Shown here: positions 30,387 through 32,443 of the stretch, piece by piece
Layout: every line of letters begins with the position of its first letter
Position numbering within the stretch: the stretch's first letter is position 1
Assembly (NCBI GenBank): GCA_937884175.1
Contig: CALGDB010000008.1
Location: 1-32,443 of the forward strand
DNA: 32,443 bases
Reading direction: 5' to 3'
Source: an uncultured Flavobacteriales bacterium
GTDB lineage: Bacteria; Bacteroidota; Bacteroidia; Flavobacteriales_D; Sanyastnellaceae
Translations under genes and position numbers: made by a program
Notes under the pieces: generated by a model
What the model was told of the DNA's origin: nothing
Seen by the model: only the letters and a program-made list of their open reading frames with translations
Databases searched by the model: none

Positions 30387-31949
30387 ATGAAGCGAATCTT
30401 TACGTTACTGCTTTTGTCGTTGGCCTTTGGCTTGAATGCACAAGAGCGTTATTTGGATGAAATTTTTGATGAGGTGCAAGTCACGGAAGACGTGCAGTAC
30501 GCCGCAAATATCACGGTGATTCCGGCATTGCAAGGGCTGCCTCCAATGCAAATGTCACAGTTCATGGACGTATACGAGCCCGTGGGCGACACCCTCACCA
30601 GCCGTCCGCTTATTCTCTTGTTTCACACGGGCAATTTCTTGCCACAGTATGCCAACGGCTCAGCGCTTGGCACCCGCAAGGATAGCTCCATAGTTGAATT
30701 AGCCCACCGCTTCGCACGGATGGGGTACGTCACGGCATCCGTGGATTACCGCCTCGGTTGGAACCCACTTGCGGGCACGCAGGTGGAGCGTACGTTTCAA
30801 TTGATTAATGCGGCGTACCGTGGGGTTCAGGATGCACGTACCGCCGTTCGTTACTTCCGCATGAACGCGGCTGAGATGGACAACGAATATGGCATTGATC
30901 CGGATAAAATCGCCATGTTCGGCGACGGCACGGGCGGTTATGTCACACTGGCATCGGCGACGCTGCAGGACTACAATGACATTATTTTGAACAATGCCGG
31001 AGAAGCCATCGAGAGCTTTTGGTATGATCCAGGCGACGGATCGACCATCCCAATGGTGATTGAAGCCGTCAACGGTGACCCAGAGGGCAAGCAGGATGGT
31101 TTTGCTCCTGACGGCACGCAGCTCTGTATCGGTCACTATCCCGACTACAGCTCAGAGTTCAACTTCCAGATGAATACGGGCGGCGCTATGGGCTCAGCCG
31201 AATGGTTGGACGCCGGGGACGTTCCGATGGTCAGTTTCCATTGCCCCCATGATGCATACGCGCCGTACACTACGGGCATCGTGGTTGTACCCACTACCAA
31301 CGAGCCGGTCATTGAGGCTACGGGAGCGTACGACTTTCACGCCATCATCAATGCCCAAGAGGCGCCCAACAACAACGACGTGTTCCAGAGCTTGGAATTG
31401 GACGACGACGTTTCACTCGCGGCCAACGCATTGAACGACGGTATGGACGGGTTGTATCCAGTATTGAACAATTACGTAGACGGCGAGCCTACTGAGCCGT
31501 TTGATAGCTCGCCTTGGCAGTGGTGGGACGTGGCTGTTGTACAGGCTGTTGACACCGCGCAAGGCACAAATATCGCCGCTACCCAGTTGTCTTTGAATCC
31601 CACCATGGGCGCAGAAGAAGCTTTGCCATGGATTGACATCATTCAGGGGTACACGGCTCCGCGCATGGCTGTGGCCATGGGCTTGGTTGAAATAAGCAGC
31701 GGCGTCGAGGATGTCGTCAAAGGGGAGACCTTCACCGTCTATCCAAACCCGACCAGCGGGTTTACGACCATTGCGTTCAATGAGCCGGCACCGTTCTGCT
31801 CGTTGTACACAATGGATGGCCGGATCGTACGTCAGTGGCCATTGATTGGAGTTGAGGGCAGCTTCTCTGTTGACTTGAGCAACTTGACTGCTGGCACCTA
31901 CGTGGTCCAGATTGGCCGCGAATCCCAATTGGTGTCCATCGTCCGTTGA
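30387..31949 (+). CDS. Secreted alpha/beta-hydrolase-fold protein with T9SS C-terminal sorting domain; nucleophile elbow altered
   Basis: Signal peptide 'MKRIFTLLLLSLAFGLNAQ', 'VDYRLGWNP', 'RGVQDARTAVRYFRMNAAEMDNEYGIDPDKIAMFGDGTGGYVTLASA', C-term 'VYPNPTSGFTTIAFNEPAP...LTAGTYVVQIGRESQLVSIVR'. Confidence 0.88.
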   Translation: MKRIFTLLLLSLAFGLNAQERYLDEIFDEVQVTEDVQYAANITVIPALQGLPPMQMSQFMDVYEPVGDTLTSRPLILLFHTGNFLPQYANGSALGTRKDSSIVELAHRFARMGYVTASVDYRLGWNPLAGTQVERTFQLINAAYRGVQDARTAVRYFRMNAAEMDNEYGIDPDKIAMFGDGTGGYVTLASATLQDYNDIILNNAGEAIESFWYDPGDGSTIPMVIEAVNGDPEGKQDGFAPDGTQLCIGHYPDYSSEFNFQMNTGGAMGSAEWLDAGDVPMVSFHCPHDAYAPYTTGIVVVPTTNEPVIEATGAYDFHAIINAQEAPNNNDVFQSLELDDDVSLAANALNDGMDGLYPVLNNYVDGEPTEPFDSSPWQWWDVAVVQAVDTAQGTNIAATQLSLNPTMGAEEALPWIDIIQGYTAPRMAVAMGLVEISSGVEDVVKGETFTVYPNPTSGFTTIAFNEPAPFCSLYTMDGRIVRQWPLIGVEGSFSVDLSNLTAGTYVVQIGRESQLVSIVR

Positions 31950-31970: not shown

Positions 31971-32004
31971 AAAACCCCGGGGGCATTTGCATTCGGGGTT
32001 TTTT
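31971..32004. terminator. Bidirectional intrinsic terminator between the T9SS hydrolase and NOS genes
   Basis: AAAACCCCG (31971-31979) pairs with CGGGGTTTT (31994-32002), followed by T's to 32004. Confidence 0.85.
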
Positions 32005-32042
32005 CATGCCCTGAATCAGCGGGCGGTTGCCCGTGTGGGCAG

Positions 32043-32443
32043 TCAGAGGTGAAAGGGACAGCCGGTTGCCGGCCTGGGCTCCTGCCAAGGCGGCGATTGA
32101 TAGAAAAAGTTTGTGTGTGTGCACATCGCATTGTCGAATTCCCGGTGAAATTGCGGCGTCTGTGGACTTGAAATAGGCGGGTTGAGCCAAGACCAATCCC
32201 CGTTTACATGTCGTTCTCGGCCGGTTTCGTGAGTGCAAAATGCCTCAAACTGCGTACCGAGATTGTGGTGGTCTCCAACCGTAATGCCGGCTTTGTCAAA
32301 GCTGTGGAGCACGGCGCGGTTCAGCTCGACCAACGCTCGGTCCCGCCACAGCGTCCGTTCGTTCGAGGTGTCGAGGCCTAAGCATTCGGCCACAACAGGA
32401 AGTTGGTTGTACCGTTCGGCATCGGCGAGGTTCCGCGCGCCGA
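32043..32443 (-). CDS. nos: Nitric oxide synthase oxygenase, C-terminal portion (5' end beyond window)
   Basis: Frame is open past GTG 32393 to the window edge: 'GARNLADAERYNQLPVVAECLGLDTSNERTLWRDRALVELNRAVLHSFDKAGITVGDHHNLGTQFEAFCTHETGRERHVNGDWSWLNPPISSPQTPQFHREFDNAMCTHTNFFYQSPPWQ...'. Matches the NOS oxygenase patterns RY-x-LGLDT, LW+D+A+VE+N+AVLHSF, DHH, DW-x-W-x-x-PP...TP-x-FH. Confidence 0.9.
   Translation of the reverse strand, partial: GARNLADAERYNQLPVVAECLGLDTSNERTLWRDRALVELNRAVLHSFDKAGITVGDHHNLGTQFEAFCTHETGRERHVNGDWSWLNPPISSPQTPQFHREFDNAMCTHTNFFYQSPPWQEPRPATGCPFHL

Follow-up and report, generated by a model that had tools for sequence, protein, structure and literature searches.

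A free-standing type I nitric oxide synthase oxygenase, apparently inherited vertically, in a family of mostly uncultured Flavobacteriales

The gene at the right-hand end of the DNA analysed here is, we are very confident, an ordinary type I bacterial nitric oxide synthase (NOS) oxygenase that has been inherited vertically and that would work with electrons borrowed from a ferredoxin-NADP reductase (FNR) system. The window, 32,443 nucleotides in length, makes up the entire contig C8 of a metagenome-assembled genome (MAG) of an uncultured Flavobacteriales bacterium (2.2 Mb in 322 contigs, 92% complete), and it holds the 3' part of the gene on the reverse strand (32043..32441; 132 codons and the stop). 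The frame, read from 32441 to 32043, is open to the contig end, stops at a TGA and encodes a protein part that contains DWSWLNPPISSPQTPQFH. It matches the Pfam family NO_synthase (PF02898) over positions 244-362 with 143 bits and an E-value of 1.2e-41, where the cut-off is 22.7 bits. The original prediction, made from the letters of the window, had placed a NOS oxygenase C-terminus at the edge of a Bacteroidota-like chromosome; the Pfam match and the open frame confirm the former, and relatives among Flavobacteriales MAGs agree with the latter.

The remainder of the reading frame was found elsewhere in the genome, on another contig. The single other PF02898 match (G000:C101:18975-19938, positions 3-315, 350 bits) comprises the first ~330 residues of a NOS and lies right at the end of contig C101, which places the two halves on separate contigs. 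The last 222 bp of C101 agree with the last 222 bp of C8, taken on the reverse strand, at 98% identity; three of the 4 mismatches change a residue. Both pieces stay in frame up to their contig ends. In two close relatives (L033 and L034) the NOS gene is intact, is 90-91% identical to the C101 part and is flanked by a DEAD-box helicase on one side and by a convergent alpha/beta hydrolase on the other, exactly the genes with which C101 and C8 end. Because of the 222-bp overlap and the order helicase-NOS-hydrolase on single contigs of relatives, we conclude that the pieces on C101 and C8 are one gene (L001) that was cut by assembly and is neither a fragment nor a pseudogene. An overlap that falls short of 100%, with most of its mismatches altering the protein, would also be expected if each contig carried its own truncated pseudogene or paralog, but this we regard as far-fetched: the helicase, NOS and hydrolase surround one intact gene in L036 as well as in L033 and L034, nearly all genomes of the family carry just one NOS, neither piece is interrupted before its contig ends, and strain variation within the MAG explains the mismatches. 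The assembly probably broke within the one NOS gene at such strain variants.

Read across both contigs, the protein has the residues of a working NOS. The heme-ligand Cys and the proximal Trp lie in WKNSNRCIGR, where they are invariant across the NOS set, and the substrate-binding Glu lies in MGTEIGARN, both on the C101 part. By alignment with B. subtilis NOS, the conserved active-site residues that fall in the window begin with the Arg-Asn of the TEIGARN motif (32430..32435, reverse strand), and the arginine-site Gln, Tyr, Glu and Asn and the Arg of TEIGARN are all present. The segment D-W-S-W-L-N-P-P...F-H (32145..32198, reverse strand) carries the pterin-site Trp/Trp/Phe (DWSW...FH), and the residue table across the NOS set gives Asn there where other NOS mostly have Val or Ile; the retention of both Trp of DWxW and of the Phe of TPxFH, predicted from the start, is thus read directly in the window. 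The stop falls 17 residues past the last conserved domain block, and therefore, just as had been proposed, the protein has no fused reductase and is of the oxygenase-only type. Its relatives likewise lack a fused reductase, and the same type makes up the majority of bacterial NOS (PMC9500659). The absence of a Pfam match, the absence of the heme Cys region and a stop just past position 32443, any of which would speak for a spurious or broken gene, are all excluded.

Further support comes from the structure model of a close relative (L033; mean pLDDT 90.8), for which a structure search returned B. subtilis NOS entries as the best matches (44-46% identity, rmsd ~1.7 A, E 1.7e-40). The B. subtilis enzyme (PDB 4d3k, 1m7v, 2an0) is also a free-standing oxygenase, ~45% identical and of the same fold (TM 0.88/0.94), and the two share the heme Cys, the Glu, His128, the Asn and the pterin-site Trp/Trp/Phe. 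In contrast to B. subtilis NOS, the protein described here has Leu for Ile218 at the NO gate and Tyr for Trp in FNGWYMG; the variable residue of WLxPP is Asn, and a CPFHL tail is added at the C-terminus. Cyanobacterial NOS (the oxygenase-only Nostoc protein L120, and SyNOS) have the oxygenase domain in common with it but carry Ile rather than Leu at the gate, and SyNOS, unlike our protein, is fused to a globin and a reductase (PMC6104048). Judged by its sequence, the window gene is probably a working free-standing type I NOS oxygenase. The Cys of NRCIGR would serve as the heme ligand, the Glu of MGTEIG would hold L-arginine, and a reduced pterin or tetrahydrofolate would occupy the dimer face; L-Arg would then be oxidised via N-hydroxy-Arg to citrulline and NO.

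The NO-gate residue lies next to the heme; mammalian NOS has Val here and bacterial NOS has Ile, which one paper assigns to all bacterial NOSs (PMC6104048) and another to the majority of them (PMC6120233). We found Leu at this position in L001, in 16 of the 16 proteins read from its own genus (g1) and in all nine of those read from a second genus of the family (g18; 9/9), and Ile in 11/11 proteins of a third (g20). The gate is Ile in 19 and Val in 3 of the 22 other NOS read, so that L001 departs from a trait reported for bacterial NOS (Ile, rarely Val; PMC6104048) that does not define membership of the family. Only three changes at the gate are needed on the NOS tree. A second difference concerns the variable residue of WLxPP, which is N, T, S or A throughout the family except for one V; the 22 other NOS have Val or Ile there. 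The sequence WLNPPISSPQ had been set against a normally conserved VPPMSGS; the segment is indeed altered, but VPPMSGS is the mammalian form, and Asn is normal for this lineage given the residues that the family uses. Asn as a change unique to our protein was rejected, since Rhodococcus opacus NOS has Asn in WLxPP too. The Leu gate and the polar or small WLxPP residue may each bear on function, and the former allows the proposed Val/Ile switch in NO release to be tested on natural variation.

The protein ends in Cys-Pro-Phe-His-Leu (32046..32060, reverse strand), and a Cys-Pro-Phe/Tyr (CP[FY]) tail is present in 36 of the 36 family members with a complete C-terminus, despite total tail lengths of 17 to 65 residues. 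None of 168 neighbouring genes ends in CP[FY], and a search with the pattern CPFH gave 15 sites, among which only the NOS site lies in an evidently real gene. Similar tails are seen in Bacteroidota NOS from outside the family (L057, L058, L059, L062 and L066; several with CPF(H)), and related ones in the NOS of Deinococcus taeanensis, Rhodococcus and Nostoc (...PW...GCPFGH in L120). Since peptides with Cys-Pro are known to bind heme transiently (PMC10377097), a heme or redox role of the tail is a reasonable hypothesis, and in CPFHL the Cys-Pro stands in a flexible segment, as in a Cys-Pro heme regulatory motif. We found no description of a CP tail in NOS among the open-licence papers searched. 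An active regulatory element, acting through transient heme binding or as a thiol redox switch, would add to the main explanation; we hold this to be possible, with the odds somewhat in favour of a neutral remnant. The tail is disordered in the L033 model (pLDDT ~46), it is absent from the NOS of B. subtilis, Nonomuraea, Embleya, Natribaculum and the sampled Pseudomonadota, and most of the Actinomycetota, Pseudomonadota and haloarchaeal NOS sampled are without it. More doubtful is a reading in which these proteins form a distinct NOS subfamily, with NO release retuned by the Leu gate and with heme loading or activity controlled by a conserved CP motif that recurs in the free-standing NOS of several phyla and was missed since the model Bacillus enzymes lack it. 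The CP tail provides a simple mutational test of heme-linked control.

The NOS family is known mainly from Bacillota, Deinococcus and Actinomycetota. Within the family of the window it is present in 39 of 114 genomes, all from three genera, namely its own genus (18 of 22 genomes), g18 and g20. At the level of the order, 19 of 245 genomes that are at least 90% complete have a NOS, with only two of the 19 outside the family, and a phylum-wide sample of Bacteroidota gave 12 of 393. Placement in a NOS tree puts the family proteins in one fully supported clade (100/100) in which the three genera separate; the tree is unrooted, and Actinomycetota NOS were sampled via plasmids and the search for relatives. 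Because the gene is found in most of its own genus and in two sister genera, in one clade that tracks the genera, it looks to have been inherited vertically in the three genera from one acquisition or retention. The label of an accessory-looking gene fails for this reason, and the view of NOS as less familiar in this lineage holds in that it is rare but not in that it is wholly unfamiliar, a NOS of the Bacteroidota species Spirosoma linguale having been mentioned before (PMC6104048).

These results extend a known enzyme family by a vertically inherited lineage from marine Flavobacteriales, most of them uncultured, the marine setting being suggested by the names and sources of related MAGs. If the enzyme is active, such bacteria would produce NO biologically by a route other than denitrification. 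By analogy with Staphylococcus NOS, for which roles in respiration or oxidative stress have been reported (PMC10580903), NO may here be a modulator of either process. Bacteroidota NOS from outside the family (L052, L053 and L057-L066) belong to the same Pfam family but not to the 100/100 clade, and they have Ile at the gate where it was read. One of them, from the same class (L060; G555:C1:374222-375307), lies in an open frame of >1300 aa in which flavodoxin-like sequence follows the oxygenase domain, and is probably a fused multidomain NOS; two others from the phylum search, L061 and L064, have one in-frame stop each (TAA and TAG), which may reflect either recent decay or the place where the match ends. 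Elsewhere, plasmids of haloarchaeal Natribaculum (L122; CP095395.1 and CP095391.1) encode a complete NOS oxygenase, and a NOS gene is present in OR845001.1 and OR850403.1, deposited as Staphylococcus phages, where it may be host DNA in the assembly.

Searches of the window's own genome for redox partners were run family by family. Flavodoxin_1 was not detected in this 92% complete genome, and proteins of this family occur in 4 of the 22 genomes of the genus, so that the electron route may vary within it. The genome has only two PF00175 proteins, one PaaE-like (adjoining a PaaA-like gene) and one NqrF-like by neighbourhood and sequence, and a dedicated NOS reductase among them was rejected on these likenesses. 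Contig C65 encodes a thioredoxin-reductase-type FNR (L112) related to that of B. subtilis (3lzw), which has been proposed to supply NO synthase with electrons by reducing ferredoxin and flavodoxins (PMC11121358). Bacterial NOS is considered to draw on any available reductase (PMC10580903; PMC3005942). Since an FNR of the B. subtilis type is present, no Flavodoxin_1 was found and bacterial NOS probably uses available reductases, our best guess is that electrons would be borrowed from the general NADPH-ferredoxin reductase system, likely from the C65 enzyme through ferredoxin. The pterin may be either biopterin-like or tetrahydrofolate; a PTPS-family enzyme is encoded in the genome and reaches the NCBIfam cut-off of neither named family.

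We also compared the neighbourhoods of NOS in its own genus, g18 and g20, and found no conserved partner, no reductase and no biosynthetic gene beside it in any of the three. The neighbours differ among the genera and comprise a DEAD helicase, a hydrolase, a carbonic anhydrase, a multicopper oxidase, YgjP and a pseudouridine synthase, all housekeeping or unrelated. On these grounds a conserved operon partner was rejected, and the upstream partners that the original prediction had left in prospect did not appear. In the window the convergent neighbour is an alpha/beta hydrolase with a Por secretion-system C-terminal sorting domain, identified by Pfam (30387..31949, forward strand). Its position downstream of NOS is conserved by synteny in L033-L037, L039 and L040; it is not a functional partner of NOS. 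The gap between the two genes contains an inverted repeat, CCCCG...CGGGG, followed by TTTTTT (31971-32006), which looks like an intrinsic terminator of the hydrolase.

That no biosynthetic genes adjoin NOS in three genera bears on whether the NOS fold might serve another job here, supplying NO for the nitration or nitrosation of natural products or acting mainly as a peroxygenase or NO dioxygenase. In favour of this, the Leu gate and the altered WLxPP set the clade apart, and some bacterial NOS lie in biosynthetic clusters with a nitrating P450 (PMC10831120). We nevertheless consider another job unlikely, with no P450 detected in the genome and the catalytic residues all standard. A well-known enzyme is represented here by a new lineage, whose residue changes and tail are consistent.

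Genes of the sulfate permease family lie near NOS in several lineages (L041:6902-8452, L043:5771-7096, L044:5224-7017 and L083); they adjoin it in g18, in some members of its own genus and in Pseudonocardia. They belong to unrelated subfamilies and are only ~25-30% identical across these contexts, and for that reason we take the adjacency to be coincidence and rejected a permease as a NOS partner. In all four Pseudomonadota NOS loci a radical SAM protein is encoded directly upstream of NOS on the same strand (L046:6430-7920, L047:3793-5301, L050:5275-6777 and L051:2613-4139), which looks like a conserved gene pair. These radical SAM proteins are 56-58% identical to the one in L051, score below every NCBIfam cut-off and show a weak, sub-cut-off match to a B12-binding domain.
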